This document shows, piece by piece, positions 11,553-62,907 of a stretch of 64,000 nt of DNA (positions within the stretch are counted from its first letter, which is position 1; every line of letters begins with the position of its first letter). The translations under genes and the position numbers were made by a program. The stretch spans positions 682,001 through 746,000 of the forward strand of contig NW_024881712.1 of the NCBI RefSeq assembly GCF_019059575.1, given 5' to 3'. Below the pieces are notes generated by a model that was not told where the DNA came from, ran no database searches, and worked only from the letters and a program-made list of their open reading frames with translations. This DNA is from Amphibalanus amphitrite (lineage: Eukaryota; Arthropoda; Thecostraca; Balanomorpha; Balanidae).

Positions 11553-11559
11553 TAATTGA

Positions 11560-16522: not shown

Positions 16523-16559
16523 TTAACTGGGTCGGCAATTGCCGACCCAGTCACGGAGA

Positions 16560-25294: not shown

Positions 25295-25460
25295 CTATAT
25301 CCCATTTAACCCTTGTACGTATAGGGGCGGCGGGTGGTTTTTCGTTAAAAGCTCATGTAAAAGGCATTGGATCACGACCAAATTGTACCCTCGAGCGCAT
25401 CATTTTTTTTTTTTTTTTTTTTTACTAGCCCGGAAAACATCATGACCTGAGACCAGTTTA

Positions 25461-33589: not shown

Positions 33590-33622
33590 TTAATATACAG
33601 GCACATCGTTTTTTCAGGTATT

Positions 33623-33763
33623 ATGAGTAAGCCAAAGTTTGCCAACCATGCCTTGAATTTCAAGGTGGTAGCAGAATGCTCAAAAAGCAAGGCTCGTGTG
33701 AGCACCATGGAGCTGCCGCACCACACTGTGAACACTCCTGTGTTCATGCCGGTTGGCACTCAG
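33623..33763 (+). CDS. QTRT1: Queuine tRNA-ribosyltransferase catalytic subunit, first coding exon
   Basis: Forty-seven codons start at ATG 33623 and end at GTQ before a consensus donor GTAAGT (33764). The residues [10 protein letters not shown], then [10 protein letters not shown], match the N-terminal strand of eukaryotic tRNA-guanine transglycosylase, where MPVGTQ precedes a GTMKGL-like motif. That motif opens the next exon at 38017 in phase 0. The enzyme swaps guanine-34 for queuine in tRNAs with GUN anticodons and in animals works with QTRT2. The start was chosen for its length against other animal QTRT1 proteins. TTTTTTCAG at about 33609-33617 may be an acceptor, which would put a 5' UTR exon upstream. 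Confidence 0.9.
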
Positions 33764-34314
33764 GTAAGTACGACCCCTCAGTCAGGGCCGGCCCCTCAGC
33801 CCCTCAGGCACGGCCTCTCAGCCACGGCCGCTGGGCGAAAGCACACTTTCCTTAAAAACTATCGGCCTACTCACGCCATCGGCCGCCCCAAATTAGTCTT
33901 GAAACAACTCCATTTCGCTTCACAGAAAGAGCATGGCGCAGTGGCTCTGATGATCATAGGCGGCGGAACGATTTGAGACAGGGGGGGGGGGGGGGGCACC
34001 AGCTCAAGGAGCCAAACCTAGGGTACCCCCAAATCCTGTTTTCTCATCGGATTTAGGCCACTTTTTTCGTCACAGCCCTGGCACGATGATTTTTTTTTTT
34101 ACTAAACGAAAATGGCAGTTCACCCCCGTATGTGTAGTTAACTTTAGGCTGATCCTCAAGTACCTGTGTGTTTGTCTCTTCCTTATTGTCGTTTGATAAA
34201 TTCCATTTATCCTACATGTATCAAATTCCCAAGAAGCCATCGCAGTACTAATCAGTGGCGAATCCCAGGGGGGAGGTCACATGGGTCATGACTTAGGGCC
34301 TGGGGTCACCACAT

Positions 34315-34790: not shown

Positions 34791-35346
34791 CGTAGGCTTG
34801 TCAGGGGGCAGGGTAGGTAGGTACACTCGGGGGCAGATTGATGTTCTACAACTCTTTATCCACCGGGTTCCTATGGCTCAGCATTGGCAGCAGCCGCCTG
34901 GTACCGGTAGACTGTGCCGCTTCACTTACTTGTCAAGCGGCACAGCCTACCCACACCGTATGCCACCGGTCTGGGTCGGTGGCTGGAAGGCGATGTGGGC
35001 CGCTTGTGACGTCAGCGCAGCGGTGAGGGCCGAGCCCGGAGGCATGGCTCGGGTCGGCGCGGCGCGGCGGCTGGCGAGGGCTGGGGAGTGAGGTGGGGTG
35101 GGAGCACGGACCATCGCGCGGCTGAGCGAGTGTAGTTAACTTTCGCGTCTCAAGGCGCCAATTATTCTACCTAACAATTGTGCTAAAGCAGTTGTTAAAA
35201 TGTCCTATCCCCAAGACAGCGCCTATCATCATACTTGCAATGCACCTTACGACACACTTAAACGTGGCATTGGGACAGCCGATAGAATTTATATCACACG
35301 CGCATCGAGTTGCGGAGCTACATTGTTTAGAACAGATAAGTATTAA

Positions 35347-36515
35347 CCCGCGCCCCGTAGGGGGGGGGGGCCGAAACGGCCCCCCCCTGTCCTTTTCGGT
35401 CGATATCTCCTAAACGGCTGGAGATATCGCCACCAAACTTTCAGGACCCCTCCGGGCATCAATTTTACACATTGTGACCAAAAATTTTTCCAGAGGCTGT
35501 GATAGGTTGGCCACAAATGACGTCAGAGTGACGTCATGTTCTGTCATTTTCGACCGAAAAAAAGACCTTCGCGAGAAGACCTGTCAGGCCTACAGCTTTG
35601 AAGATACAGAAAAATGATCAAGACATAAAAGGTGTAGAATTGACAGGGCTACAAAACTGCTATCTCGGATTTTTGAAATTTTTGAGTTTTGATCCCCAAA
35701 AATCAAAAAAGCATTTTTTTGGATATATTAGCCAAAAAATCCAAAAAGTTTTTTGAGTTTCGAAAAAACCGGAATATATGTGATAGTACCTACCGTCTTC
35801 TATCTACATACCAAATTTCAGATCGATACCTCGTTTTTTGGCCAAGTTATAGCGAAAAAACTGTTCAAAAATGATGACTTCAAATTTTCAAACTCAATTT
35901 CTGGCAATTCTAGAACTCGTAGAGCAAAACAAAGACCACCATTAGACTCCCCGTGACGAGCTGCATCGAATGGATACCCATATTATGCAAAAATATCAAC
36001 TTTGAAATTTGACCTAATTTGACCTGACCTTGACCTGACCTTCACCAAAACGTGACCTAGGCTGGCCCCAAATGCTGCCTAACCCACATAATCGCATTTG
36101 TCATGTAAAATGGACCATAAAACATGTATCACACGACACATTCATATTGTGACCCCCGGTGACCTGACCTCGCTGTGACCTGACCTGGTATCAGTGACCT
36201 CAGATAGCAAAGTATGTGTTTGACGAACAATATACCATCGATGGTTTTCAATAAATTACCAATTTAGTCGATTTCACAGCACATTTCTTGAATTGCCTGT
36301 GAACGGTGAAAATCTGACCTTTGACCTGACCTGTGACGTCATCGGTTTGACCTAGGTCAATGAAATTTGGTCACAAGGTAGTTCCCGGGTAGGTCTATCA
36401 AACGCCGTTTGAATTTTGAAAATCGGCCGGTAACTTTCCGAGATCTTAGGGGGGGCCGAAACGGCCCCCCCCCCTACGGGTGGTAGGGTCCGCCGGTAGC
36501 CCTACGGGGCGCGGG
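35347..36515. mobile_element. TTAA element, CCCGCGCCCCGTAGG family, copy 1
   Basis: Perfect ends CCCGCGCCCCGTAGGG lie between TTAA at 35343-35346 and 36516-36519. GGGGGGGCCGAAACGGCCCCCC hairpins sit inside both ends. The opposite arm of the host foldback keeps the empty site with a single TTAA (about 37131-37134), which proves the duplication. It contains tandem CREs (35518) and TGACCTGACCTTGACCTGACC in pieces near 36020. A near twin is at 55347-56514. Confidence 0.92.
35518..35536. promoter_or_regulatory. Tandem CRE palindromes, 11-bp spacing
   Basis: TGACGTCA-GAG-TGACGTCA within the TTAA element 35347-36515. The same spacer is found in its twin and in the 48397-49576 element. Confidence 0.6.
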
Positions 36516-36691
36516 TTAAGGCCTTGATTGAGCTCATTGGTGTCTATTGTTTCGCACAGCAATCGTCCAGAGACGTGGGAACTGGGGTTTTTGGATAGCG
36601 CGGCGTCCCAACTTTAAGCAATTCTTACTGTTCCTCTAATGTGTGGTCGCAGCCACCAATAGCAAGCCGTTCCAACTAGGAACAAATAATT

Positions 36692-36960: not shown

Positions 36961-38016
36961 GGCTCCTAGTTAGAACGGTTTGCTATTGGGGGCTGTGACC
37001 ACATAATAGAGGAACAGTAATAATCGCTTTAAATTGGGGCGTTGGCTGCGGCACTACTCATAACCCCCAGTTCCCACGTCTCTGGACGATTGCCGTGCGA
37101 AACAATAGACACCAATCTGCTCAATCAAGGCCTTAATACTAATATGTTATACCTACAAAATATAGCTCCGCACCTCGATGCACGAGTGACATAAGTTCTA
37201 TTGGCTGTCCCATTGCCACGCTAAAGTGTGTCGTAATGTGCATTGCAAGTATGATGATAGGCGCTGTCTTGGGGATAGGACATGCTTTAGCACAATTGTT
37301 AGGTAGAATAACTGTCGCCTTGAGACGCGAAAGTTAACTACACTCGCTCAGCCGCGCGATGTCCGTGCTCCCACCCCACCTCACTCCCCAGCCCTCGCCA
37401 GCCGCCGCGCCGCGCCGACCCGAGCCATGCCTCCGGGCTCGGCCCTCACCGCTGCGCTGACGTCACAGGCGGCCCACATCACCTTCCAGCCACCGACCCA
37501 GACCGGTGTCATACGGGTGGGTAGGCTGTGCCGCTTGACAAATAAGTGAAGCGGCACAGTCTACCGGTACCAGGCGGCTGCTGCCAATGCTGAGCCATAG
37601 GAACCCGGTGGATAAAGAGTTGTAGAACATCAATCTGCCCCCGAGTGTACCACAGTCTTTCCAGGGGCACCAGCGGCCTAGCAGGGGCAACAGTCATCAC
37701 ATGACTAACCAAAAATAAAGAAAATAAAAAAAGAACACTGAAAATAGGGCACCACCAAAATTAAGTGGCCGAAATCCCTTGAGATTTTAATTTTGGGTAT
37801 AGGTAGGGGCACCACTTCGTTTCATGACCCTCCCCTTGGAGTTTTCCCGAATCCGCCCCTGTTACTAATACATCAAATTTAAGGGGGCACCTTGCTATTG
37901 GTGCCCCCTTGCAGAATTCAAGGGGGCACGGTGCCCCTCCCCGTTCCGCCGCCTATGCTGATGATGGATCCTATACGATATGCGGCTATGTTGACCTGGC
38001 GAATGATGTGTTTCAG

Positions 38017-39862: not shown

Positions 39863-41218
39863 GGCCAAAGTGTGGGAGGGGGGACATATGTTATCACCCA
39901 CCTCTACCTAAAAAACTAAGAGGGCTAGAAAGACGCGGTAAAAAGGAGTCGATAGCTCTCAATGCGTACGTTTGAAAGTATTTCAGTCATTTTTCATCTT
40001 AGAGCAATATTAGGATCACCAGAGGTCATCAAAGGTAAAAATTTGCCAATTGTCATTATGTTTTTTTTCAGAAAACATGCCGTTATCACCTATCCCAGGA
40101 ACCATGATAGCTAGAAAAACTCATGGGAAAGCAATAGATAGCTTTTGAACTCTTCTTTTGATAAGGTCATCATTAAAATTGACATCAGATCAACGGTTTA
40201 GCCTCCAGAGGGCAAAAACGCCAAAAATAGTTGTTTTTACGAAAAGTGTTTTTCGACAATAACTTTTGACTTAAAAACGCCACGACATTTCTATTGCCAG
40301 AATCGTGTTCCTTTCGCCGAGACACGTCGAATGAACTATGATTTGACCTTTGAAAGGTCAACTTGAAAATTTAACCTCAGGTCAAGGTCATGACCTGACC
40401 GGAAAAGGTCATATGCATATTAGTCGATGCGTCTCAACAAGACACTCAATGAAGCCATCCACAGCGTTCTATCTCTTTCCAAACGAGAGTTATTGGCAAA
40501 AATATGTTTGTAGCCTCAAATGACCTCGGATGACCTTTCTAGAGGCTATCAGCAAAAAAGACACCTTGGTCGTCACGGATGGTCCAAATCATTGTGATTC
40601 TGAAATAGTTGGACTGTTCCTATGCGTACACACGGATCTAGAGGCATTTTCATTTTTCTCCATTGCACAGTGGGGATTTTTCCGATCTAGCGCGTCTTAA
40701 TTCCAAAAATGTTTTTGGATTTTTGTTTATTTTTTTGTGTCAGTGGGGCTAAGAAATGTCTGAAGTTTTCATATATGGCATTGTTTTATCTGTATGTCCA
40801 CAGCAAGACTAGGAAAAATGCGCCCAAAGTTCACACTCATGCGTGATTACTCAATGGGCTCAGTAAGGCCCGAAAGTATAGCTCAATTTCATTGTCCTGT
40901 CCTGTTGATTTTATTCTTGCGAGGTCTTAAAGTTGCATATCTTCTGAAAGGCACCTTTATTAGGAATGGAATGGCAAACAGAAAGTATGCCACAACCTTA
41001 CTACGGTCACAAAAATGTCATTTACAAAAAAACCCTTACAGACACCATATTGAAGGAATGGTGTTCTAAATAAATGTAGGAAATCAACAATGTTCTCCAC
41101 ACTTTTCCACTCCGAAACATATCCTATCGAATTCGCCACTTTCTCCTGCACAAGACAACGCCTAGTTTGGCTGCCGAAACTTGCCTGAACACGGAATATT
41201 CACATTAGAGTATCTTAA

Positions 41219-42289
41219 AGGTAGTGTGCCAGCTTTCCTGGACCGTATGGAGTTAATGGCCCAGATAAGGAGAACCGGATTTTTAGAACTTATCCATACC
41301 TTCAAAACTCATGGAAACGTCTTAAATTCTTCAAATTTTGAGTACCCCAGTGCGAAATTCGCCCCGACGGGTTGTCGGTCGTACCCCAACCACATTTCAC
41401 ACCACTATGAACAATAAATGCACACACTGAAATCGCTATTACCGATATGCTCATCCAATCAAGTTTCGATAAACCCGTTCATCAGCATCTCCTGCGGTTT
41501 CGAACACGCCTGTTAGGTGGTGCGGTAGACCGCGCCCAAAGCCAGGGCCCCGGTAACGTGAGGTAGCCGAGTCGGGGCAGCGTGCGCTGACCCAAGCCGG
41601 GGCCGCGCGTCCTCCCGGTGTCATGTGATAGCCCGGGGCTGCCCGCGGGGATGCGGTAGACCGCGCCCAAAGCTGCGGCCCTGGCTTGGGTCAGCGCACG
41701 TTGCCCCGACTCGGCTACCTCACGTTACCGGGGCCCTGGCTTTGGGCGCGGCTTCTGCTCATACTTTGTGGTGCGGTGGTGGTGCGTCGGGCCGCGCGCT
41801 CTGACTTCGGCCAAGAAAAATGCGTCAGCTGATCATTGTCATTTCTGCCACTTGCGTGTGGTGAAATGGGGTCATAACTTAAGAGACGGCTTTTTCATAT
41901 CAAATATTTTACATAAAATCATATTTCAAACCATAAATAATGTTCGACAGCCAAATAAAAGAAACAATACCAATACAGGCTTACAGTTTACGGCTCGACA
42001 TTGTGTTGTCTACGATTAGACAGCTGATAACTCATTCCCGTACGTCGTAACTCTATAATGACCTTTGCTTATTGTCACATGTGCGCCGCATTCGCGATTG
42101 TTGCCGACGCCTGTTTGCAGGCCAGCCCACTACAGTTGTTATACATATCGAAAAACCGATAAACTTTTAGGCGAGAAAGGCACTATTCCAGGCCCATTTT
42201 TGACTTTTTTTGCGATATTAGGTAAAAACAGAAGCTTCTTATCCTAGGAAAAATAAAATGGGAAATCTTTCAAAGGTGGCACACTACCT
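41219..42289. mobile_element. TTAA element, AGGTAGTGTGCCA family, copy 1
   Basis: TTAA is at 41215-41218 and 42290-42293, with inverted ends AGGTAGTGTGCCA. A long internal palindrome (GGTAACGTGAGGTAGCCGAG and its inverse, about 41524-41750) is present in all four copies. Other copies are at 49581-50650, 57502-58559 and 62908 on. Confidence 0.9.
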
Positions 42290-42965
42290 TTAATACCCTA
42301 CTCTAGGAGCGCTAGGGCAAACAGCACGATATAGGTACAGTCGTGTACAGGTTGATGGTCCCCTACTCTTTATCCACCGGGTTCCTATGGCTCAGCATTG
42401 GCAGCAGCCGCCTGGTACCGGTAGGCTGTGCCGCATGACCCGAGAGTGAAGCGGCACAGTCTACCCACGCCGTTTGACATCGGCTCGGGTCGCCGGGTGG
42501 AGCGCTTTGTAGACCAGCTGTTGCGTCAGACCAGCGCGGGGGGAGGGGCTCGTCTCGGTGGTTGGCGTGGGCTGGCGAGTGGTGTGGGGCGTGTTGGTGG
42601 ACCATGGGGCTGGGCGGGTGTGTGTGGTCACTTGCTGCATTGCACATTTTGCGTCGCTTAACAATTGCATTCCTGTTTTTGCTAGGCACAATGCACGGAA
42701 GACCCAGCGAATATAATTTACTTTACTTGTGCATTGTGCAAAACGTGATTTGGCACGGTATCGAGGCAACCATAGATCTTGTGCCTATGCATGATATTTA
42801 GGCAATACGTTTATGAAAACGGTAGATTGATGCTGGATGTCAATTCGTATTGCTAAATGTCGGCATATATTAAATGAATGAATGAATGAATGAATCAATC
42901 AATCAAACAATCAATCGACATGTATAAAACCGTATAAATGGCTCGCAACCACTAATAGCAATCAA

Positions 42966-43255
42966 ACCCTCCTAACTCGGAAAAGCAGCCGGAGCCCTGA
43001 TGAGGCTCGAACCGGGACTCCACGCTGTAAATTTTGCCAATGATCCATCATCATTCCACCAAGCTAGAGTAACCGGCACCCGAACCCACAAAAACATTAA
43101 TTGACTTTGCCGCCGACCTCCCGGCCCCGCCGCCCACCCGGCCAGACTTTTACCCGGCCTTAGCCACCATCCGGTGTAGCTCAGCGTAGGAATGCTCGAC
43201 TGTCAAACTGACCGGTAGTGAGGGGCTCGGTTCGAAACGCTTCGGATGCTGGATG
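42966..43255. repeat. Two tRNA-like modules in the left arm of foldback 3
   Basis: At about 42966-43080 (minus strand) there is an A-box-like CTAGCTTGGTGGAATG and box B GGTTCGAGCCTC, with the tail TTGCTATTAGTGGCTGCGAG. At about 43165-43255 (plus strand) there is box A GTAGCTCAGCGTAGGAATG, box B GGTTCGAAACGC and acceptor-like ends CATCCG/CGGATG. Confidence 0.52.
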
Positions 43256-43524
43256 TTTATTTCTCGGTGGGAGGCTTTACGTTTAGTCCACTTTTCAGAA
43301 AGATCATTTGGTGACTGACCTGTTTTCTTTCTTTGCTGCAATTCATGAGGAGACCGTATGCACCCTTACCTGTCCTTCCGCACCCCACTTGGGAGATGGG
43401 TGGTTGCCCCCCCATGGGTTTGTGAATATCTCTAAAACGAATTTTTGGAGGGGGGATACGATCGGTTCTATGCGACAAGTGACCACACACGCCCAGCCTC
43501 AGGTCCGCTCACTCCCTACCCATA

Positions 43525-44454
43525 GGGGAGAGTGGTGCAGGAGGCCCCCCCTTAAGCTCAGTTACTATTTTTAGACAACTGATAATATTTAAGCGCTAAC
43601 GTGTGCATGCGCTGTGAGCATGCATCATTTTCCCATACATATTTGCATTCAAAATGAATCTAGGGGGTACACAAACCGTAAACTTTAACATTTTGGAAAA
43701 AGTTGCAAAAGGGCCTCTTACACTATGGGTATGGTAAGACGCCCCCCCCCTCGGGCGTTTTAAAAGTCAAGTCGACTTGTAAAAGACGCTTTGCGAACAC
43801 AGCTGCAAGGCCTTTTATTTCGAAAAGCTAAGCAAATACGGTGTTATCGAAACCAATAACACTTCCAAAGCGCTCGAACAATGCGAAAACTAGCACAACC
43901 AAACGCTGATGACCAACGAAAATTGTACCTATAACCTCTAAGAAAAGAAACAGAAAAAAGAAACAAAAACAAACTCCTTGAAAAAAGAATGCCACGCCTG
44001 CCGCAGGTGCAGGCGTTTTAGCATCGGGGGCGTTTTTTTATCGGGGGGCGTTTTATCATCCTCGAAGGGAGGGCCTCTTAAAAAAATACAGTGTTTTAAC
44101 GTCCACAATATTTATGGTTTATGAGACATTTGCAGCGCACCAGAACATGGTCTATTCTGAAGCTAACATGTGACAATTTCGATGAGAAAAGATTGCATTT
44201 GATAGCCATTGTTTTTTTCAGATATATAAGGGTGATAAAGATGCATATATCTAGCAAGTAAAGGGGCAAAAACAGAAACAGAACAGGCTTACCAAAAGTC
44301 GCTGCGACGCACCTGATACCTCAGGTTTCGTGAGTTGTTGTTTCAAGAGGACTTCTGCTTTACAAGAACATTAAAAAATAAATAACATTATTGGTTTGGT
44401 AAAAAAAGCGATGGGGCCTCTTACCGACCCTGGGCGTCTTACACGGATCTCCCC
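43525..44454. mobile_element. TA-flanked MITE in the foldback arm
   Basis: TA is at 43523-43524 and 44455-44456. The ends GGGGAGAGTGGTGCAGGAGG and, reversed, GGGGAGATCCGTGTAAGACG share the first seven bases and general layout. The opposite arm keeps the empty site CCCATATCAC (reverse of about 44871-44880) with one TA. Internal phrases GGGCGTTTTA and GGGCCTCTTA recur. Confidence 0.88.
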
Positions 44455-44559
44455 TATCACACCCTCCCCACACCACACTCCAGCCCGCCTCATCCACCGA
44501 GCCGAGCCATAACGAGCCTCAGCGCCCCGGGGCGCGACCTGTCAGCGAACACTGTTATA

Positions 44560-44760
44560 TACTAACAGTGACAATATATCAAATCCGTGAACTCCTCTAT
44601 GAATGTCGTCTCGCAGATCCGGCCGTTTGGGCTTCAACGACCGAATGTTGAGGTGTCCAATTATCAGGTCTGGTCCAGTGTCGCCGTGGCGGCGCCAGCT
44701 CGCGCCGCCTCGATGTCCCCGACGCCTGGACGCGCCCCTGCCCCCGCGGCGCACGCAACC
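44560..44760 (-). pseudogene. LINE endonuclease N-terminal fragment in foldback spacer
   Basis: The minus-strand frame reads GHLNIRSLKPK and then a GVHGFDIL segment, the opening of a LINE apurinic endonuclease domain. It is preceded by the arginine/glycine-rich stretch also found before the endonuclease at 24840-24936. It is truncated on both sides. Confidence 0.72.
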
Positions 44761-45153
44761 GCCGGCCCGCGTCCCCGCCGGTTCGCTGACAGGTCGCGCC
44801 CCGGGGCGCTGAGGCTCGTTATGGCTCGGCTCGGTGGATGAGGCGGGCTGGAGTGTGGTGTGGGGAGGGGGTGATATGGGTAGGGAGTGAGCGGACCTGG
44901 GGCTGGGCGTGTGTGGTCACTTGTCGCATAGAACCGATCGTATCCCCCCTCCAAAAATTCGTTTTAGAGATATTCACCAACCCATGGGGGGGGGGGCAGC
45001 CACCCATCTCCCAAGTGGGGTGCGGAAGGACAGGTAAGGGTGCATACGGTCTCCTCATGAATTGCAGCAAAGAAAGAAAACAGGTCAGTCACCAAATGAT
45101 CTTTCTGAAAAGTGGACTAAACGTAAAGCCTCCCACCGAGAAATAAACATCCA

Positions 45154-45425
45154 GCATCCGAAGCGTTTCGAACCGAGCCCCTCACTACCGGTCAGTTTGA
45201 CAGTCGAGCATTCCTACGCTGAGCTACACCGGATGGTGGCTAAGGCCGGGTAAAAGTCTGGCCGGGTGGGCGGCGGGGCCGGGAGGTCGGCGGCAAAGTC
45301 AATTAATGTTTTTGTGGGTTCGGGTGCCGGTTACTCTAGCTTGGTGGAATGATGATGGATCATTGGCAAAATTTACAGCGTGGAGTCCCGGTTCGAGCCT
45401 CATCAGGGCTCCGGCTGCTTTTCCG
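45154..45425. repeat. Two tRNA-like modules in the right arm of foldback 3
   Basis: Mirror image of the modules at 42966-43255: one on the minus strand (about 45154-45240) and one on the plus strand (about 45320-45425). Confidence 0.52.
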
Positions 45426-46099
45426 AGTTAGGAGGGTTTGATTGCTATTAGTGGCTGCGAGCCATTTATACGGTTTTATACATGTCGATTGATTGTTTGA
45501 TTGATTGATTGATTCATTCATTCATATAATATATGCCGACATTTAGCAATACGAATTGACATCCAGCATCAATCTACCGTTTTCATAAACGTATTGCCTA
45601 AATATCATGCATAGGCACAAGATCTATGGTTGCCTCGATACCGTGCCAAATCACGTTTTGCACAATGCACAAGTAAAGTAAATTATATTCGCTGGGTCTT
45701 CCGTGCATTGTGCCTAGCAAAAACAGGAATGCAATTGTTAAGCGACGCAAAATGTGCAATGCAGCAAGTGACCACACACACCCGCCCAGCCCCATGGTCC
45801 ACCAACACGCCCCACACCACTCGCCAGCCCACGCCAACCACCGAGACGAGCCCCTCCCCCCGCGCTGGTCTGACGCAACAGCTGGTCTACAAAGCGCTCC
45901 ACCCGGCGACCCGAGCCGATGTCAAACGGCGTGGGTAGACTGTGCCGCTTCACTCTCGGGTCATGCGGCACAGCCTACCGGTACCAGGCGGCTGCTGCCA
46001 ATGCTGAGCCATAGGAACCCGATGGATAAAGAGTAGGGGACCATCAACCTGTACACGACTGTACACTGAAAACAATTTTACCCGAAGCTGGCGAATTAA

Positions 46100-47041
46100 C
46101 CCTCGCCCGTAAACGGCGATCTGCCACCTTCGCCCATGCAGGGGGGGGGGTTGGTGCGACCCCCCCCTTGGCGTTTGAAAACGGAGCGTCGTAGAGCTTA
46201 GCGGAAAAAACCAACGGATTGCTCTCAACGAGATCTCGCGATTGGTGGTATATTTTTTGGTCCTAGGTCAACATTTGACCTACTTTTGACCGGTCAAAGG
46301 TCAAATTTTCGGAAAAATAGACTTTCTTCAACTTTCCGCGGCGATTGCGGCAAAACGGTGGGAGATATCGACTTAAAATCTTCACTATCGTGTTCCTTGA
46401 TCAATTCTCTATCGTTTGGTATGTATTTCGTTTCACTAGCTCTAAAAATGGCGCGTTGGGAGCGCCGGAAGTCGGCAAGGTCACAGTCGGCGGCAGAAAT
46501 TCGAAAAATCAAAATTTAAATTTTTGAAATCTGATTGTATTTTTGGATTTGGAAGGTCCATTTGCTCCCTATAGAAGCTAATATTGCTGCATATTCCCAT
46601 TGAGGTGACAAGAATTAGCAAAATAGTGGTTCGGGCGCTTTTCAAAAATAGTACCGGACGCTGTTCCTCTTGTGACGTCATAGCTCCGTGACCTGACCTG
46701 ACCCGGTCAAGTTTCTTATACCATATGATAGCCAATACTTGCCCCAACATGCATGGGAAGTTTCATCACGATCCATCAACCAATGTCCGTACCACCGGCA
46801 GGAAACCTCGGGCGTTGGCACTCAGTTTGTGAAAATCCGGCCGGAGGCTGTTCCCTTTGTGACGTCATAACTCCGTGACCTGACATGACCCGGTCAATTT
46901 TTTTTTTATCAAAAGATGCGCAAGGCTTGCCCCATAAGGTACCCAAAATTTGGCGGCGCTGCGCGCCGCCGTTTTTGCACTATTTCCGAAAAACCTCAGG
47001 GGGGGGGGGGTTGCACCAACCCCCCCCTACATGGGCGAGGG
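46100..47041. mobile_element. TTAA element, CCCTCGCCC family, copy 2
   Basis: TTAA is at 46096-46099 and 47042-47045. It is near-identical to 30147-31070 but keeps a left-hand hairpin (GGGGGGGGGTTGGTGCGACCCCCCC, about 46141-46167) that copy 1 has lost. Confidence 0.88.
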
Positions 47042-47045
47042 TTAA

Positions 47046-47924
47046 GCGTTGCTCTGCGGGTGGTATATGTGTATTAACTCGCCATGTCCAGATTCTAGCT
47101 AGAGGGTAAGAGACTTGCCTGCCTTATTACTCGTAAATATGCACCGTACCCACAGTCTGCAGTAAGGTAGCTACCCAGCACCGGATATTGTCCCCGCGGG
47201 TGTCGAGTCATTGGCATAGCCCTCACTGAAAGAGTTGGAACTACTCGAGATATCGTAAACGCGTATCCGTGGACGAAGCCTTACATAACCTGCCCTGAAG
47301 GAGTTGGATCTACTGGCACAACTATATGGCGTTGTCTCATACAGTTTTGAATTACAGCAATTTTTAACTTTTTTTTTGCACCAATGATATATTGGCACAT
47401 TGTTTGGCGGTTTCAAGTGGGGGCGAAAGTACAATTGTTAGGGTGCATCTTTAAAACCTCTGCAATATTCATCACGGGACGATTGGCAACGCCTTTTCTT
47501 CCGAAACTACCAAGTGAGACCATTTTGATTCTTATATAGGTCACGAAAGCAATCGCGAGACATCTTCTTGATCTCGGGCGGCCTGTATGACTACCGGTGA
47601 CTGGGTCATGTCGAATTTTCTGTGGGAATTCGATTTGACCGTTCCCACCGACGTGAAACTTTCTCACCGATGTTTTCTAGGTGTGAGATTGTCGTAATAT
47701 AACAGGTGTGCATTTAGTTTCTGGAAAATGTTTTTGCTGCCATAACTTTAGTGTTTGAACTTAGATTAAGATGATGTTTGGTACATATATAAATTGCAAC
47801 AATAGCTAAGAGTTGTCAAAAAAATTAGGCGATCTTTCCTCCGAGGCGGTCTACAGCCCACGTGCTATACAGACGCCCCCTATTGAAATTGCGCGGCACC
47901 TCCGGGCAGACTTGTGCCGTGACC
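47046..47924. other. Unassigned interior of the CACAGTG element
   Basis: No gene or element end was recognised. The small open frames carry no known domain. Confidence 0.45.
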
Positions 47925-47934
47925 AAAAATCAAG

Positions 47935-48390
47935 GTCCAGGATCCTCAAGGTCCCACGGCAAATTCAATTTCCAGAATCCAAGGATTCCAAGGTCCCACG
48001 GCAAATCCAATTTCTAGAATCCAAGGTTTCCAAGGTCTCACGGCAAATTCAATTTCTAGAATCCAAGGTTTCCAAGGTCCCACAGCAAATTCAATTTCTA
48101 AAATCAAGGTTTCTAAGGTCCCACGGCAAATTCAATTTCTAGAATCCAAGGTTTCTAAGGTCCCACGGCAAATATATATTGCAGGATCCACAGTCCCCAA
48201 GGTCCCACGACAAGAATGCATTGCAGGATCCACAGTCCCTAGGGTCCCACGACAAGCGTGGATTTCAGGATCCACAGTCCCCAAGGTCCCATGATAAGTA
48301 TACACTTCAGAGTTCAGAGTCCACAGTCCTCAAGGTCCCACGGCAAGAATACATCTCAGGATTCAAAGTATTCATGGTCCCATAACAAGA
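47935..48390. repeat. 42-bp minisatellite (AAGGTCCCACGGCAAATTCA)
   Basis: About ten units start AAGGTCCCACGGCAA. The first half of each unit is constant and the second half switches from CAATTTCTAGAATCC to a GCAGGATCCACAGTCC type midway. The period is divisible by three, which gives 14-residue repeats in the frame 47813-48142. No signal, domain or start context suggests a real protein. Confidence 0.88.
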
Positions 48391-48396
48391 ACTTAA

Positions 48397-49576
48397 CCTT
48401 CCAGGCGGTGGGGGGCATTTCCCCCCCCCCTTTAGTTTTTTTTCGATATATCTCGAGAACCGCTGCGCCGATCGTCACCAAACTTTCAGTACCCTCCCGG
48501 GAGCAGCTAGCGCACATGGTGACCAAAAATTTTTCCAAAGGCTATGATAGATTGGCCGCTAATGACGTCAGAGTGACGTCATTTTTGCCATTTCTGACCC
48601 AAAAAAAGGTTTCGCGGGAAGAGCTGTCAGGCCTACAGCTTTAGAGATACAGAAAATCTTTGACATAAAAGGTGTGGAATTAAAAGGGCTACAAAACTGT
48701 TATTTCGGTTTTTCGATTTTTTTTATTTTGACCCCCAAAAATCAAAAAATATATTTTTGAATATAATAGCCGAAAAATCCAAAAAGTTTTTTGAATTACG
48801 AAAAAACCGGAATATATGTGATAGCCCCTACCGCCTTCTCTCTACATACCAAATTTGAGGTCGATACCTCTTTTTTTGGCCAAGTTATAGCGAAAAAACT
48901 GTTCAAAATTGATGACGTCAAATTTTCAAACTCAATTTTTAGCAATTCTAGACCTCGTAGCGCAAAACAAAGACCACCATTAGACTCCCCGTGACGAGCT
49001 GCATCGAATCGAATACCCATTTTATGCAAAAATATCAACTTTGAAATTTGACCTTTTTTGACCTGACCTTGACCTGAACTCCACCAGAAAGTGACCTAAA
49101 CCGTACCTGATGGTCTTATAACCAACACCATTGAGTTGGAAATGAAAAACTGGCCATAAAACATGCATCGCATACATAACCTTAGTAAAGTTGGGCTCAT
49201 GTGGTGACCCTTGGTGACCTTTGGTGACCTGACCTGTGACCTGACCTGGTATGACCAGTGACCTCTAATAGCAACATATGTACTAGACAACTGACGCCTT
49301 ATCGCTGATTTTCGACAAAATGCGTTTTACTCGGTGTTATAGCGCTTTCCCTAGAAGCCCCGTGAACGGTGAAACATTTTATCTTTGACCTGACCTGTGA
49401 CGTCATCGGTGACCCCGAGGTCAATGAAATTTGGTTTCCCTCGACAAATTTTACAGGGCTATCGAACGCCGTTTGAATTTTCCGGATCCGTCCAGTAGTT
49501 TCGGAGATACGGGGGGGCAAAAAAGTGCCCTCCCCCACCGCGCGGAAGGTGGCTGGTAGGCCCACCGCCTGCCGGG
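48397..49576. mobile_element. TTAA element, CCTTCCAGGCGGTGG family
   Basis: TTAA is at 48393-48396 and 49577-49580. The ends CCTTCCAGGCGGTGGG and, reversed, CCCGGCAGGCGGTGGG are inverted. A GGGGGGCATTTCCCCCC hairpin stands on the left and GGGGGGCAAAAAAGTGCCCTCCCC-like pairing on the right. Tandem CREs are at 48563. The interior is a diverged relative of 35347-36515. It shares its right TTAA with the next element. Confidence 0.82.
48563..48581. promoter_or_regulatory. Tandem CRE palindromes, 11-bp spacing
   Basis: TGACGTCA-GAG-TGACGTCA inside the TTAA element 48397-49576. Confidence 0.6.
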
Positions 49577-49580
49577 TTAA

Positions 49581-50650
49581 AGGTAGTGTGCCACCTTTGA
49601 AAGATTTCCCATTTTATTTTTCCTAGGATAAGAAGCTTCTGTTTTTACCTAATATCGCAAAGAAAATCAAAAATGGGCCTGGAATAGTGCCTTTTTCGCC
49701 TAAAAGCTTATCGGTTTTTCGATATGTATAACAACTGTAGTGGGCTGAGCTGCAAACAGGCGTCGGCAACAATCGCGAATGCGGCGCACATGTGACAATA
49801 AGCAAAGGTCATTATAGAGTTACGACGTACGGGAATGAGTTATCAGCTGTCTAATCGTAGACAACACAATGTCGAGCCTTAAACTGTAAGCCTGTATGGT
49901 ATTGTGTCTTTTATTTGGCTGTCGAACATTATTTATGGTTTGAAATATGATTTTATGTAAAATAATTGATATGAAAAAGCCGTCTCTTAAGTTATGACCC
50001 CATTTAACCACACGCAAGTGGCAGAAATGACAATGATCAGCTGACGCATTTTTCTTGGCCGAAGTCAGAGCGCGCGGCCCGACGCACCACCACCGCACCA
50101 CAAAGTATTAGCAGAAGCCGCGCCCAAAGCCAGGGCCCCGGTAACGTGAGGTAGCCGAGTCGGGGCAGCGTGCGCTGACCCAAGCCGGGGCCGCAGCCTT
50201 GGGCGCGGTCTACCGCATCCCCGCGGACAGCCCCGGGCTATCACATGACACCGGGAGGATGCGCGGCCCCGGCTTGGGTCAGCGCACGCTGCCCCGACTC
50301 GGCTACCTCACGTTACCGGGGCCCTGGCTTTGGGCGCGGTCTACCGCACCACCTAACAGGCGTGTTCGAAACCGCAGGAGATGATGATGAACGGGTTTAT
50401 CGCAACTTGATTGGATGAGCCTATCGGTAATAGCGATTTCAGTGTGTGCATTTATTGTTCATAGTAGTGTGAAATGTGGTTGGGGTACGACCGTCAACCC
50501 GTTGGGGCGAATTTCGCACTGGGGTACTCAAAATTTGAAGAATTTAAGACGTTTCCATGAGTTTTGAAGGTATGGATAAGTTCTAAAAATCCGGTTCTCC
50601 TTATCTGGGCCATTAACTCCATACGGTCCAGGAAAGCTGGCACACTACCT
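49581..50650. mobile_element. TTAA element, AGGTAGTGTGCCA family, copy 2
   Basis: TTAA is at 49577-49580 (shared with 48397-49576) and 50651-50654. Ends and palindrome are as in copy 1, in opposite orientation. Confidence 0.9.
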
Positions 50651-50654
50651 TTAA

Positions 50655-52320
50655 ACTAACATTCTGATGAGCAGGCTTACTTCTAAATATTCTGCCAACG
50701 GCTGCCCAGCAACATTGAAAGGGGCAGAACCTATGCAAACCTGTGGTGGTTTTATCATTTACCAACATACTACATACATAGGTAGGGGGAGCTTCAACAC
50801 AAGTCAAAGTTAAAGATGAATCATGATATCAATCTCTCCTTTAGCCGGACAAATTCATAAAAATATAGGTAGGTAATAGGTACCTTGCATTTTGTATTGT
50901 CATGTTCCTTTCAAATCAATCTTACCTGATCATTAGGAATGTAGGATAGCACCTTACAGTTATTGAAGACAGAAATCCAAGTATTCTTTCAGGCAAGATA
51001 AAAAAACCAGAAATGAAAACTACAGGCTTCATAAACATGGAAAAAGTTAATTGGATAGGTATATGCTTTCGATTTTCTGCATATTCAGTTACATAATACC
51101 TAGAGCTCTGTTCGCACCCCGTTTATTTATCAGCAGGCTGCGACCATGCTGCTAACTTCTTGGCTCCTCATTGGTCGAATTCAAGTGGTCTATTCGTTAG
51201 ACCAATGAGACGCCAAGCCGCGCCAGCAATAACCGACAGCACGCTGATATAAAAACAGCGACCGAACAGGGCCCTGATAAAAGCTCAAATATGTTCTAAG
51301 TCTTCTTTGCGCGAGCGCTCACAGAAAAAAAACTGATCGATTAAGCCAATAGGATTAGAGTATCAGCGAGCGCAAACTGTCGGATAAAACCCCATGGTTT
51401 TCCGCATCTTACTCGCGCAAAAAGCGGCCGATCGCGACGAAACTTTCGGTGCCTTCGAGATCATCAATTTTACATCTTACCTAAAAATTTCATGACTCTG
51501 ACCCAACTGACCTTCGACCTGTGGTGTGGCATATTTCTCGAGACCATGTTTGGCCGGAATCGCGATTTAGCGTATGCCAGCTCACATGATCCGCGGTTTC
51601 CAGTCTTTTTGTGGTTTTAAACGTTCAAATATGTGAAATGATGTTGGTGCCATGCATTATGGTGGGTGTCAAGGTCACGTGAAGTTCAAGTCAAGGTCAT
51701 TGACCTTTGATGACCTTGGTTCACTTTTTCGAATTTTACTTGTTTCTAGGGTAGTTTTTGGTGCTGATTTCGAATTTAGCAATCATTTGAATATTTACAA
51801 AGTAGTTCTGGTGCCTTCGTACCATGCTACGAAGCTGTCAGTAGTAGCTGACACCTACTATGGATGGCCGGCAGGACGCCTACTGGTTGATCTGACCTGA
51901 CCTGACCCGACCTGGCCTAAATGCATAAAGACATCGTCTGTGATCAAAACTAACATGAAATTCGTCATCAGCACCACAAAATACCCCGTAACACGCTAAC
52001 TTCACGAGGTTTCAAGATGTCTAGATTTCCCAACTTTAGTTGGGTCATTAAACTGACTTGGAAAGTCAACTAATGACCTTGGACTTTGAAATTGGATATA
52101 TTCGGCCTCATCTCGTCATAGGCAGCACGTTTGATTTTTCCGCGAAGCTCTAGCTTGATCAGGGGCCAAACGGCTGAGCCGGGGGTCCAATTGAACCCCC
52201 TATACTATGTTGATTATGCACATTTACAGGTAACATTCTCACCAGAACACACCAGCCAACATCTGTGCACAATCTGGCTACAATAATACCTATGGTTTGC
52301 CCTCTACGAATAAAGACGTG
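50655..52320. other. Remaining interior of the CACAGTG element, no intact gene
   Basis: 50655-51100 is AT-rich with nothing recognised. 51420-52200 has AGGTCA-rich wording similar (in reverse) to 59340-59747, a relic of a TTAA family, and includes TGACCTGACCTGACCCGACC at about 51893. It ends near CCGGGGGTCCAATTGAACCC. Confidence 0.45.
51166..51262 (+). promoter_or_regulatory. CCAAT boxes plus TATA-like box
   Basis: CTCATTGGTCG (about 51167), ACCAATGAG (about 51200) and GATATAAAAAC (about 51246) have spacing like that of a small animal core promoter. No gene follows within the element. It could be the remaining promoter of the host transposon or chance. Confidence 0.28.
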
Positions 52321-52769
52321 CTAGATCGGAAAAATCCCCACTGTGCATTGACTTATAATGGTAAGGTCACACACGGATATAAAAATCTGAGATATACAAA
52401 TTATAGGCGCTCATAACATCATGCAATCCACCATGTTTAAAACCTCTCTGACAAACACTGCAGGCTGGACATGATTGCAAACTTTTTTAGGCTTGGTCAG
52501 TTAACTTGACCTGGTGACCTGACCTGGCATGACCTGGGGTCAAAAATTTCATGCATTGTCCAAAATTGATGTACAGAAAGCTACTGAGAGCGGCGCGGCG
52601 CTACGCGCCGCGGTTTTTTATTCACACGCAAAAAAACGCGACAGGGTGGTAACATATGCCCCCTCCCCCACTGGGGCGAAGGTTAAGTTGTTTTCCGGTA
52701 TTTAATAGAGTTAAGCGTTGTGAGGAAAATCATCATGATGATTATGAGCATATTTTATTGACCGAATCC

Positions 52770-53639: not shown

Positions 53640-55340
53640 CTTCAGCGATACCTATCGCCTAGAGGCTGCAATGGGGCCCTTATAGTACGGTGTCAGACCC
53701 CCAGAGGCCGGTGTTGGATCCAAGGGTCAGCGAAGGGCCTCAAAGGCCCCAGGTAGGGCCCCAGAGGCTGATGTGGGCCTTCAAAGGCAAGTGCGTGACG
53801 TCCAAAGGTAAGGCTTGAGCCCCCAGAGAACATAATAGGGCCATCAGTGGCCGGTGTAGAGACCTCATAGGCCAGTTTTGGGCCCCCTCAGAGGCTAGTG
53901 TGGGGCCTCAGGTGTCGGTATGAGGCACTTAAAGACCGTTATGGGTCCTCAGAAACCGGCATCGATCCTTCAGAAGCCAGTACGGGGCCCTCAGAGGCAC
54001 ATAAGGGTCAGTTTGGGTCCCAGAGACAGAAATGGGACCATCAGAGGCCGGTGTGGGACCTTTAGAGGCTGGTTTGGGTCCTTAGGGGCCAGTTTAGGGC
54101 CCTCAGAAACCAGTACAGGGCCTCCAAAGGCAGTTTGAGACCATCAGAGACCGAATTGGGCACTCAAAGGCTAATCTAATGTGGGTCTTTACAGGCCAGC
54201 ATGGAGCCCTCAGAGGTTAGCGTGGGGCCATAAAAGATCGACATGGGCCGGCGTTGGACCCCAGAGGCCAGTAGAGGGCCCTCAAAGGCCAAGATGGGCC
54301 CTCAGAGGCCGATGCGGGCCCTTAGAGGCCGGTATCAGGTCTTCAGAAGCCCGTGCGGGGCCCTCAGAGGCTAAGGTGGGTCCTTACATGACAGCACGGG
54401 CCCTCAGAAGTCAGTGTGGGGCCCTAAAAGATCGGCATGGGCCGGCGTTGTCTCCAGAGGCCAACAGAAGGCCCTCAAAGGCCAATATGGGCCCTCAGAA
54501 GCCGATGCTGACCCTTAGAGGCCGGCATCGGGTCTTCAGATTCCAGTGCGGGGGGCCATCAGAGGCTAATGTGGGCCTTTACAGGCCAGCATGCGGCCCT
54601 CAAAGGTCAGAGTGGGACCCTAAAAGACTGGCATTGGCCGGCGTTGGACCCCAGAGGCCAGCAGAGGGCCCTCAAAGGCCAAGATGGGCCCTCAGAGTCC
54701 GATGCGAACCGTTAGAGGCCGGCATCGGGTCTTCAGAATCCAGTGCGGGGCCCATAGAGGCTAATGTGTGTCCTTTCAGGCCAGCATGGGCCCTCAGGTC
54801 AATGTGGGGCCCTAAAAGACCGGTGTGGGCCGGCGTTGGACCCCAGAGGCCAGCGGAGGGCCCTCAAAGGCCAAGATGGGCCCTCAGACGCCGATGCGGG
54901 CCCTGAGCTGCCGGCATTGGGTCTTCAGAATCCAGTGCGGGGGGCCCTTAGAGGCTAATGTGGGTCCTTACAGACCAGCATGGGGCCCTTAGAGGTCAGT
55001 GTGGGGCCCTAAAAGGCCGGCATGGGCCGGCGTTGGACCCCAGAGACCAGCGGAGGGCCCTCAACGGCCAAGATGGGCCCCAGAGGCCGATGCGGGCTCT
55101 CAGAGGCCGACATCGGGTCTTCAGAATCCAGTGCGGGGCCCTCAGAGACACTTAAAGGTTAGTCTTGGGACTCGAGAGACAGAAATGAGGCCACCAGATG
55201 CCGGTTGGGCCCCTGAGGCCGGTTTAGGGGCCCTCAAAGGCCAGTGGAGGGCCCTCAGACTCAGAGGTCAATGTGGGTCCTCAGCGGTCAATGTGGACGC
55301 TTGACCGCCACTGAAGGGCCCTCAGAGGTCAGTGTAGGAC
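53640..55340. repeat. Minisatellite with higher-order repeat of about 195 bp
   Basis: The basic unit GGGCCCTCAGAGGCCAGTGT is about 30 bp. GGCCGGCGTTG recurs near 54247, 54440, 54636, 54829 and 55026, which marks a higher-order unit of 193-197 bp. The open frame 54181-54906 (241 codons) lies in this array and is a by-product of it. Confidence 0.85.
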
Positions 55341-55346
55341 CCTTAA

Positions 55347-56514
55347 CCCGCGCCCCGTAGGGGGGGGGGGCCGAAACGGCCCCCCTGTCCCTTTCGGTCG
55401 ATATCTCCTAAACGGCTGGAGATATCGCCACCAAACTTTCAGGACCCCTCCGGGCATCAATTTTACACATTGTGACCAAAAATTTTTCTAGAGGCTATGA
55501 TAGGTTGGCCACAAATGACGTCAGAGTGACGTCATGTTCTGTCATTTTCGACCGAAAAAAGACCTTCGCGAGAAGACCTGTCAGGACTACAGCTTTGAAG
55601 ATATAGAAAAATGATCAAGACATAAAAGGTGTAGAATTGACAGGGCTACAAAACTGCTATCTCGAATTTTTGAAATTTGAGTTTTGACCCCCAAAAATCA
55701 AAAAAGCATTTTTTTGGATATATTCGCCAAAAAATCCAAAAAGTTTTTGAGTTTCGAAAAAACCGGAATATATGTGATAGTGCCTACCATCTTCTATCTA
55801 CATACCAAATTTCAGATCGATACCTCGTTTTTTGGCCAAGTTATAGCGAAAAAAACTGTTCAAAAATGATGACGTCAAATTTTCAAACTCAATTTTTGGC
55901 AATTCTAGAACTTGTAGAGCAAAACGAAGACCACCATTAGACTCCCCGTGACGAGCTGCATCGAATCGATACCCATATTATGCAAAAATATCAACTTTGA
56001 AATTTGACCTAATTTGACCTGACCTTGACCTGACCTTCACAAAAACGTGACCTAGGCTGGCCCCAAAGGCTGCCTAACCCACATAATCGCATTTGTCATG
56101 TAAAATGGACCATAAAACATGTATCACACGACACATTCATATTGTGACCCCCGGTGACCTGACCTCGCTGTGACCTGACCTGGTATCAGTGACCTCAGAT
56201 AGCAAAGTATGTGTTTGACGAACAATGTACCATCGATGGTTTTCAATAAATTACCAATTTACTCGCTTTCACAGCACATTTCTTGAATTGCCTGTGAACG
56301 GTGAAAATCTGACATTTGACCCGACCTGTGACGTCATCGGTTTGACCTAGGTCAATGAAATTTGGTCACAAGGTAGTTCCCGGGTGGGGCTATCGAACGC
56401 CGTTTGAATTTTGAAAATCAGCCGGTAACTTTCCGAGATCTTAGGGGGGGGGGGGCCGAAACGGCCCCCCCCCTACGGGTGGTAGGGTCCGCCGGTAGCC
56501 CTACGGGGCGCGGG
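55347..56514. mobile_element. TTAA element, CCCGCGCCCCGTAGG family, copy 2
   Basis: Near twin of 35347-36515. The left TTAA (55343-55346) is intact, while the right is CTAA (56515-56518), a point change. Hairpins with GGGGGGGCCGAAACGGCCCCC lie at both ends. Confidence 0.9.
55516..55534. promoter_or_regulatory. Tandem CRE palindromes, 11-bp spacing
   Basis: TGACGTCA-GAG-TGACGTCA inside the TTAA element 55347-56514. Confidence 0.6.
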
Positions 56515-56769
56515 CTAAAGACTGGTATGGGAGCTGTTAATGGCTGGCGTGGGTTTCTCGAGCCTCGTGACAATCGAATACGGGCCAGGGTCCCATACGG
56601 CCATGGGGGCCCATCGGTTGTTTGGGGGGGCCAAATGATATGATGGTCCCCCTGATTTGCCTTTGGGGGGGGGGCATGGCCCTGATGGCCCTCCCCCCTG
56701 CGACCGCCACTGATTCGGAAATTCTCATTGGGGAGGGACTGAAAATAAAAGTTGGCTGGCCGTGTCCGG

Positions 56770-57340: not shown

Positions 57341-57501
57341 TTCTTTCAGTTTACTGAGAACATTTCAGATTCGCCTAAGACGAGGAGGTCAGACATCGAA
57401 CTTATAATTAAACACCGACTGACACCCCAAAGGGACAAAGTCCATCCCTTTGAGAAGGAAGCGTTTCGGTGGGTCGTCCCCTCAATCAATCAAACGCTTA
57501 A

Positions 57502-58559
57502 AGGTAGTGTGCCACCTTCCAATGATTTCCCATTTTATTTTTCCTAGGATAAGAAGCTTCTGTTTTTACCTAATATCGCAAAAAATGGGCCTGGAATAGT
57601 GCCTTTTTCGCCTAAAATTTTATCGGTTTTTCGATTTGTATAACAACTGTAGTGGGCTGACCTGCAAACAGGCGTCGGCAACAATCGCGAATGCGGCGCA
57701 CATGTGACAATAAGCAAAGGTATTATAGAGTTACGACGTTCGGGAATGAGTTATCAGCTGTCTAATCGTAGACAACATAATGTTGAACCTTAAACTATAA
57801 GCCTGTAATGGTATTGTTTCTTTTATTTGGCTGTCGAACATTATTTATGGTTTGAAATATGATTTTATGTAAAATAATTGATATGAAAAAGCCGTCTTTT
57901 AAGTTATGACCCCATTTCACCACACGCAAGTGGCTGAAATGACAATGATCAGCTGACGCATTTTTCTTGGCCGAAGTCAGAGCGCGCGGCCCGACGCACC
58001 ACCACCGCACCACAAAGTATTAGCAGAAGCCGCGCCCAAAGCCAGGGCCCCGGTAACGTGAGGTAGCCGAGTCGGGGCAGCGTGCGCTGACCCAAGCCGG
58101 GGCCGCGGCTTTGGGCGCGGTCTACCGCATCCCCGCGGGCAGCCCCGGGCTATCACATGACACCGTGAGGATGCGCGGCCCCGGCTTGGGTCAGCGCACG
58201 CTGCCCCGACTCGGCTACCTCACGTTACCGGGGCCCTGGCTTTGGGCGCGGTCTACCGCACCACCTAACAGGCGTGTTTGAAACCGCAGGAGATGATGAA
58301 CGGGTTTATCGAAACTTGATTGGATGAGCCTATCGGTAATAGCGATTTCAGCGTGTGCATTTATTGTTCATAGTGGTGTGAAATGTGGTTGGGGTACGAC
58401 CGACAACCCGTCGGGGCGAATTTCGCACTGGGGTACTCAAAATTTGAAGAATTTAAGACGTTTCCATGAGTTTTGAAGGTATGGATAAGTTCTAAAAATC
58501 CGGTTCTCCTTATCTGGGCCATTAACTCCATACGGTCCAGGAAAGCTGGCACACTACCT
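57502..58559. mobile_element. TTAA element, AGGTAGTGTGCCA family, copy 3
   Basis: TTAA is at 57498-57501 and 58560-58563, the latter shared with the next element. Same orientation as copy 2. Confidence 0.9.
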
Positions 58560-58563
58560 TTAA

Positions 58564-59747
58564 CACGCGCACTGCAGGGGGGGGGTTGTTTTCAACCCCC
58601 CCCTTTGGTTTTTCGCAAATTGCGAGAAAACGGCGGCGCGTAGCGCCGCCAAATTTTGCATACCTGTTCTCACAACTTTTGCACACCTTGAGTAAAAATT
58701 TTGACCCCAGGTGACCTATGGTCAGGTCACCAGGTCAGGTCAAGTGACCCTACCTCGAAACGTAAATTTCGCAGTTTGCAATCCCACCAAGCCCACAGTT
58801 GTTGAGATATGATCTTGAAACCCACAGGAAATAGTAAAGTCATCACGAGCTACAACTTGTATATCTCGGAATTTTTATATCGATGACCTAAGGTCAGGTC
58901 ATTTTTGCGACCGGCCCATTATAAGTCAATGGGAGAAATTTCAACTTACTCTGAATGCCATCCTATGACTTCAATACGCTCAGGATCATAGTATTCTAGG
59001 TCCCTGTTGGTGATTTCACCGAAACATATCACTTATGACCTTTGGAAGGTGATCTCCAGGTCATCTTAGGTCACCTGAGGTCACCAGCGGTTTTTCTTCA
59101 ATAACTTGACGATTTAAAAAGCAATCGAAAATACAAACCTCCAGCCTCAATGCTACCTAGCACAAAATTTTGCGCTGAACCTGAGTTTTTAAAAGCATTT
59201 TTAGCATTTGACATAGGTCGAGTCAGGTCTGGTCAGGTCAACCAGTAAACTGTTATGCCAGCTAGCCAAAGAAGGTGTTAACCGTCCACCAGGGACAGCT
59301 TCATAGTTCGTAACATGTTGCATTGGCACAAAAATTACTCCTCAAATGTTCAAATGGGTTCTAGATTCGACAAAATTGACATCTCCAAAAAGTGACCCAA
59401 AGCAATCTAAGGTCAATGCCTTTGACCTGACCTTTGAGTGCCCTTTGGCACCAATTATAAGGCATGGGACTACCATCATTGTACATGTTGGCACGTTTAT
59501 AAGACACGACAAAGTCTGGAAACGCATAGATAAGGTGGCACACGTCGAATCGCGATTCCGGCCTGACATGGTCTCGACAAACAGGTTACAGGTCAAGGGT
59601 TATGAGTGGCAGGGCCATGAAATTTTTAGGAAATGAGTAAAATTGATTATCTCGAAAGTACTTAAATTTTCGCCCCGATAGACCACTTTCTACCCAAATG
59701 CGAAAAACGAGGGGTGGGTCTATCCGACCCCCTAATAAGTGCGAGGG
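58564..59747. mobile_element. TTAA element with unlike halves
   Basis: TTAA is at 58560-58563 and 59748-59751. The left end CACGCGCACTGCAGG equals the right end of 59886-60909 reversed. The right end, reversed, is CCCTCGCACTTATTAGG and its interior matches 51420-52200 instead. Hairpins GGGGGGGTTGTTTTCAACCCCCCC (left) and GGGGTGGGTCTATCCGACCCCC (right) are present. A recombinant of two families is likely. Confidence 0.68.
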
Positions 59748-62903: not shown

Positions 62904-62907
62904 TTAA

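Follow-up and report, generated by a model that had tools for sequence, protein, structure and literature searches.

The 64,000-nucleotide stretch analysed here (the window; Amphibalanus amphitrite contig NW_024881712.1, positions 682,001 to 746,000) contains, at 40666-52345, an 11,680-bp segment flanked by CATTG on each side and bounded by 26-bp perfect inverted ends, CACAGTGGGGATTTTTCCGATCTAGC. The first 26 bp of the two ends are identical and 36 of their first 38 bases agree; beyond that, the ends diverge. Transib ends follow the heptamer-like pattern CAC(A/T)(A/G)TG, and CACAGTG stands at each end of the segment. An earlier note on this DNA had reported the perfect inverted ends and the flanking CATTG repeats, and both were found exactly at the positions listed in Table 1. 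The segment is a transposon that inserted into one copy of a repeat and, as seen in this single insertion, duplicated 5 bp of its target site.

Table 1. Features of the CACAGTG-ended element, its host repeat and the insertions nested in it (positions in the window).
Feature	Position	Strand	Remarks
Uninterrupted host-repeat copy (empty site)	15420-16526	+	single CATTG at 16198-16202
Host repeat, left part	39874-40665	+	90% to 15420-16202
Left target-site duplication	40661-40665	.	CATTG
Left terminal inverted repeat	40666-40703	+	begins CACAGTG; first 26 bp identical to right end
Core piece 1	40704-41214	+	without long reading frame; without long repeat elsewhere in the window
Nested element B1	41215-42293	+	TTAA at both ends, then AGGTAGTGTGCCA
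Core piece 2	42294-42334	+	from sequence
Nested element C, palindromic	42335-46064	.	3730 bp; GTAC...GTAC ends
Core piece 3	46065-46095	+	from sequence
Nested element D1	46096-47045	+	TTAA at both ends, then CCCTCGCCC; copy at 30143-31074 (96%)
Core piece 4	47046-48392	+	holds 42-bp tandem array at about 47943-48391
Nested older element E1	48393-49580	+	relative of 35343-36519 and 55343-56518
Nested element B2, inverted copy of B1	49577-50654	-	begins at the TTAA closing E1
Core piece 5	50655-52307	+	51379-51913 with 68% relative at 59215-59728
Right terminal inverted repeat	52308-52345	-	first 26 bp identical to left end
Right target-site duplication	52346-52350	.	CATTG
Host repeat, right part	52346-52686	+	82% to 16244-16526, from 52372 on

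The related uninterrupted sequence with a single CATTG, placed by the earlier note within 16194-16205, is present as described. The host repeat was aligned in six uninterrupted copies, five of which have a single CATTG at the joint, while the sixth (at about 9.5 kb) reads TCTTG. Two of the five CATTG empty sites (at 58 and 60 kb) lie in inverted copies with 98.9% identity and cannot be counted as independent of each other. The insertion target is palindrome-like (CCATTGACTTATAATGG), a possible draw for insertion in this one case; RAG favours hairpins.

By a uniform-base estimate, a 26-bp perfect inverted pair with a 5-bp repeat would arise by chance with a probability of about 3e-10. When the window was scanned for CAC...GTG ends flanked by direct repeats of 5 bp, the pair belonging to the element came up with 16/16 matching bases, and one other pair with 12/16. 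The same scan yielded 0, 0, 0, 0, and 1 pairs in five block-shuffled sequences (best 12/16) and one pair with 12/16 in the reversed sequence. Pairs with 16/16 were likewise obtained with 2-, 4-, and 6-bp repeats; therefore, perfect ends alone are indecisive, and the 5-bp repeat together with the empty sites decides. The coordinates of these other perfect pairs, among the matches listed, fall within the long inverted pairs of the window, and the listed 4- or 6-bp "duplications" are self-complementary (ATAT, TGCA, CGCG, TTAA, CCGG, and TTCGAA), since any inverted pair yields such repeats. The 18-base end pattern, with up to 3 mismatches, occurs in the window at the two ends of the element and at no third place, and at least two such matches were found in 1 of 100 shuffles.

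The interior of the segment is composite. Five nested insertions, four of them TTAA-ended and one probably TA-flanked, together account for about 8.0 kb; without them, the core of the element is about 3.66 kb long. This swelling of the core had been missed in the earlier note. Besides its inverted copy B2, element B1 recurs at 57498-58563 and, in part, at 62904-63650. The arms of the palindromic element C (42335-43524 and 44875-46064) are 98.7% identical, and its GTAC...GTAC ends suggest that its target was probably TA. E1 and its relatives align by BLAST at about 78% over 48423-49536, and TTAA and similar terminal bases served to place the outer ends of E1. That the whole 11.7 kb is a single original element was rejected: the B, D, and E elements and the arms of C have copies or relatives elsewhere in the window, whereas the CACAGTG end pattern has none. 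The relative order of events is partly readable: the host repeat was in place before the CACAGTG element, and E1 before B2.

The core of the element codes for nothing recognisable. The longest stop-to-stop frames in its three large pieces have 101, 123, and 91 codons, the 123-codon one crossing the tandem array. All six frames of the element, with stops read as X, matched no Pfam family at E≤1 in a scan run without a Transib positive control, and none of the same six frames hit a chain of RAG1, RAG1L or Transib among solved structures at E≤1. The structure search hit only two chains of the low-density lipoprotein receptor (E 0.46 and 0.51; one frame, within palindrome C), and these were taken as chance matches. 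In the window as a whole, 12 stop-to-stop frames have at least 150 codons, and nine of these were run against Pfam; tblastn with RAG1 gave a best E of 2.1, within the frame at 2315-3409. Mouse RAG1 found the chain 6pqn, listed as a putative DNA-mediated transposase and presumably the Helicoverpa Transib, only weakly (E 0.0027), and used by itself RAG1 therefore has little power to detect Transib. The library for the six-frame structure search included 6pqn, although frameshifted relics could still escape such a search. The earlier note's statement that no transposase is visible thus holds for all six frames against both Pfam and solved structures (E≤1). Since no coding evidence from Pfam or solved structures fixes the class, one could think of a DNA transposon superfamily not yet recognised that makes 5-bp duplications; this is most improbable, as the ends and the duplication already fit a known one.

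That superfamily is Transib, the best-fitting one, to which the element would belong by its terminal bases and one duplication in one copy. We propose, with a probability of roughly 0.65, that it is a non-autonomous member of the Transib superfamily, mobilised in trans by the product of a transposase gene located elsewhere. According to excerpts from PMC7204232 and PMC4411706, Transib, RAG, and RAG-like elements have ends that start with CAC and typically duplicate 5 bp of their target; CACAGTG is given as the consensus heptamer of the recombination signal sequence (RSS) in the part of PMC8289069 available. Most Transib families, according to the same part of that article, have symmetric ends with a clear heptamer and little or no similarity to the nonamer. 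Like non-autonomous members of Transib, the element combines a 5-bp duplication, heptamer-like ends, and symmetric inverted repeats with no clear nonamer; unlike Transib itself, it has no transposase, and the likeness of its end sequence to Transib was judged on the heptamer. For comparison, the Repbase rule for a family is an alignment of positions 1-11 with at most one mismatch and an equal duplication length (PMC4455052, excerpt). A bias towards GC-rich targets has been reported for these elements (PMC8289069, excerpt), and CATTG, at this one site, has 2/5 GC.

No RSS nonamer ACAAAAACC follows the heptamer at a distance of 12 or 23 bp; at spacers of 11-13 and 22-24, no more than 4/9 bases match at either end, in agreement with the earlier note, which saw none at the usual distance. 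Within the first 100 bp or so, the best nonamer-like places at the left end match 8/9 in reverse at spacer 45 and 6/9 forward at spacer 30, and lie in T- and A-rich sequence; those at the right end match 6/9 in reverse at several spots, including spacer 20. Against the Transib reading, nonamer-like sequences in Transib ends have been shown at 20-22 bp and in a few cases at 12/23 bp (PMC8355894, excerpt). CACAGTG, exact at both ends of the element, is also the consensus heptamer of vertebrate V(D)J recombination signals; the element differs from these in having no nonamer at 12/23 bp and ends that are alike, and in being a transposon rather than a gene-segment signal.

The CAC start, the 5-bp duplication, and the animal host are also shared with RAG-like (RAG1L/RAG2L) transposons such as ProtoRAG, of which an oyster and several deuterostomes are reported to carry non-autonomous forms (PMC7204232, excerpt). 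However, positions 8-10 of the element are GGG at both ends, while the protostome RAG-like consensus has AAA, and the match to this consensus, which is degenerate in several places, is 9/17 positions. ProtoRAG has CACTATG ends with a 27/31-bp asymmetry, as opposed to the symmetric CACAGTG ends found here. Neither the six frames nor tblastn revealed a RAG1 or RAG1L match in this copy, although a non-autonomous member would lack RAG1L too. A non-autonomous RAG-like element distinct from classical Transib is therefore very unlikely, and this specific assignment is not supported. Of the earlier proposal of a non-autonomous Transib- or RAG-related transposon, the non-autonomous nature, the 5-bp duplication, the RSS-heptamer-like ends, and the fit to Transib stand, whereas a relation to RAG beyond Transib does not, given GGG at positions 8-10.

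The ends alone could also suggest a non-autonomous relative of the CMC group (EnSpm/CACTA, Mirage, and Chapaev) with an unusual 5-bp duplication, a reading we consider unlikely. The end signature of this group is CACTA or CACTG, from which CACAGTG differs. The clade that unites the CMC group with Transib mostly has CA..TG ends and makes duplications of 2-5 bp, and CAC..GTG ends like those of the element are known in fungal EnSpm, which makes 3-bp duplications in contrast to the 5 bp seen here with empty sites (PMC12730594, excerpt).

From two bases further in, the element ends read CAGTGGGG, which we take to be hAT-like, and a non-autonomous hAT5-type element could be proposed, but this is quite improbable. 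With the end shifted to CAGTG, neither the 8-bp duplication of hAT nor any 5-bp repeat is found in the flanks; a 4-bp TGCA repeat is left, yet the empty sites read CATTGACT, without TGCA. The end consensus of hAT, YARNG, calls for R as the third base, where CACAG, taken as the end, has C. Families of hAT5 with 5-bp duplications do exist, and their lineage includes animal hAT families (PMC12730594, excerpt).

Returning to the Transib reading, a transposase of Transib type, with its gene at another place in the genome, would have bound both ends, cut adjoining CAC, and joined the ends 5 bp apart across CATTG, the repair of the gaps producing the CATTG duplication. The insertion would then have been swollen to 11.7 kb by TTAA-ended elements and by a palindromic one that probably targets TA, although some of them may already have been inside before the last move of the CACAGTG element.

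Exact searches for other copies gave no match in genome contigs for a 26-mer, nor in viral contigs for the end of the B element and a 25-mer modelled on the host-repeat joint. An exact 18-mer match in viral contigs was taken as chance, the sequences diverging from the element right after the 18-mer. A literature search whose reach excluded most subscription papers found no paper with phrases for non-autonomous Transib and, for CACAGTGGGG with "transposon", none on transposon ends by title.

As it stands, the segment is a single insertion of a non-autonomous element, and it shows clearly a set of nested transposons that can partly be ordered. It could, though this is doubtful, belong to a new animal Transib/RAG-like family with the exact vertebrate consensus heptamer at both ends of otherwise near-identical repeats of ~38 bp without a nonamer. 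If so, a living lineage would allow the study of a state in which the V(D)J signal is recognised symmetrically and by its heptamer alone. Should a full-length relative with a Transib/RAG1-like transposase exist, a family with the exact RSS heptamer would be added to the record of the origin of the V(D)J signal from transposon ends.

The element, an 11.7-kb candidate transposon with CACAGTG termini, has two ends that are identical over their first 26 bp, share 36 of their first 38 bases and diverge beyond. Self-comparison of the window matched its left flank (39874-40665) to 15420-16202 with 90% identity and its right flank (52372-52686) to 16244-16526 with 82% identity; judging from sequence similarity, the flanks are the two halves of a single host repeat. 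When the joined flanks were aligned with six uninterrupted copies of this repeat from the window, the joint carried a single CATTG in five copies, two of which are 98.9% identical to each other, and TCTTG in the sixth. A scan of the window for terminal pairs bordered by a 5-bp repeat returned the element at 16/16 matches and one further pair at 12/16, while five shuffles and the reversed sequence gave at most one pair (12/16) each. Scans with 2-, 4- and 6-bp repeats likewise yielded 16/16 pairs; by their coordinates, those listed sit inside the long inverted pairs of the window. The terminal repeats, CATTG flanks and uninterrupted relative described in the earlier note were confirmed by sequence reading, self-comparison and alignment, and the element is a genuine transposon insertion. 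Its target lies within a small inverted repeat (40655-40665 joined to 52351-52370), CCATTGACTTATAATGG, a similar form of which recurs in most of these six host-repeat copies.

All six frames of the whole element were translated, stop codons being written as X, and no Pfam family was found at E<=1. The structure library included RAG1 chains, the RAG1-like (RAG1L) chain 6b40 and the DNA-mediated transposase 6pqn, which we take to be amphioxus RAG1L and Helicoverpa Transib, respectively; none of these matched the six frames at E<=1, in line with the earlier remark that no transposase was visible. The sole structure matches were two lipoprotein-receptor chains in one frame (E 0.46 and 0.51). Mouse RAG1 searched against the whole window gave best E-values of 2.1 (tblastn) and 5.9 (phmmer). 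In its present form, the element is non-autonomous.

The terminal CACAGTG is identical to the consensus heptamer of the V(D)J recombination signal (PMC8289069, in excerpt), and Transib, RAG and RAG-like elements typically make duplications of 5 bp (PMC7204232; PMC4411706, both in excerpt). One paper describes Transib ends as symmetric for the most part, with slight or absent similarity to the nonamer (PMC8289069, in excerpt), which fits the element; another, PMC8355894, differs on the sequence beyond the heptamer, giving nonamer-like sequences at 20-22 bp and, in a few cases, at 12/23 bp. As previously noted, the element lacks a recombination-signal nonamer 12 or 23 bp from its heptamers (<=4/9 matching). 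The best matches within the first ~100 bp are a T-rich 8/9 match in reverse orientation that lies 45 bp from the heptamer at the left end only (40666-40785) and 6/9 matches at several places, including one in reverse at 20 bp in the right end; these off-spacing matches, seen in one copy only, are given no weight. GGG at positions 8-10 of the ends counts against a specifically RAG-like element. Relatives of EnSpm, Mirage or Chapaev and a hAT5 element remain rivals, since the clade uniting the former with Transib has CA..TG ends and 2-5 bp duplications in common and hAT5 duplications are 5 bp (PMC12730594, in excerpt). The proposed assignment to a Transib- or RAG-related transposon is the best fit, yet unproven.

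Self-comparison and boundary reading revealed five nested insertions.

Positions of the element, its nested insertions and other features of the window
Feature	Position	Description
Element	40666-52345	11,680 bp
B1	41215-42293	TTAA at start and end
C	42335-46064	3.7 kb; near-perfect palindrome, 1.19-kb arms 98.7% identical; GTAC ends
D1	46096-47045	TTAA at start and end
E1	48393-49580	TTAA at start and end; outermost ends from sequence reading, not BLAST
B2	49577-50654	TTAA at start and end
Retrotransposon frame	2315-3409	Reverse-transcriptase RNase H and integrase zinc-binding domains (Pfam)
tRNA-Ser (GCT)	3803-3876	ARAGORN prediction
Foldback-like structure	7806-12271	Inverted 16-bp-unit arrays (8182-8622, 11554-11965); 20-bp-unit arrays outside both
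1.25-kb element	24937-26203; 31453-32703	Two copies, 98% identical; ends CAGTGGTCGGCAG / CAGGGGTCGGCAA
Reading frame with likely exon	33476-33973	Queuine tRNA-ribosyltransferase 1
Tandem array	54046-55147	~389-bp units; shorter subrepeats containing GGGCCC

B, D and E have copies or relatives elsewhere in the window, those of E1 being ~78% identical. The palindromic C, for which we infer a TA target, contains no Pfam domain, and relatives of its arm ends, 78-79% identical, lie at 34820-35022 and 37450-37651. E1 most likely inserted before B2, because B2 begins on the TTAA closing E1. The remaining core comprises five pieces (549, 41, 31, 1347 and 1691 bp; 3659 bp in sum) and includes a 42-bp tandem array (~47943-48391).

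Elsewhere in the window, the retrotransposon appears to be Gypsy-like, and the 1.25-kb element is hAT-like by appearance. The likely exon rests on a 37-residue stretch whose best match is queuine tRNA-ribosyltransferase catalytic subunit 1 (E 2.2e-08; presumably mammalian chains), followed by bacterial-type chains (E 4e-04 and weaker); a Pfam TGT match falls just below the cut-off (25.9 vs 26.3 bits). These matches suggest that the host is an animal.

Most likely, a Transib-type transposase whose gene lies outside the element mobilised it in trans; the enzyme would have cut at CAC and joined the ends at staggered positions 5 bp apart, with subsequent gap repair. Of this proposed transposition, the product alone is seen here. 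The greater part of the element's current length consists of other elements lodged inside it.
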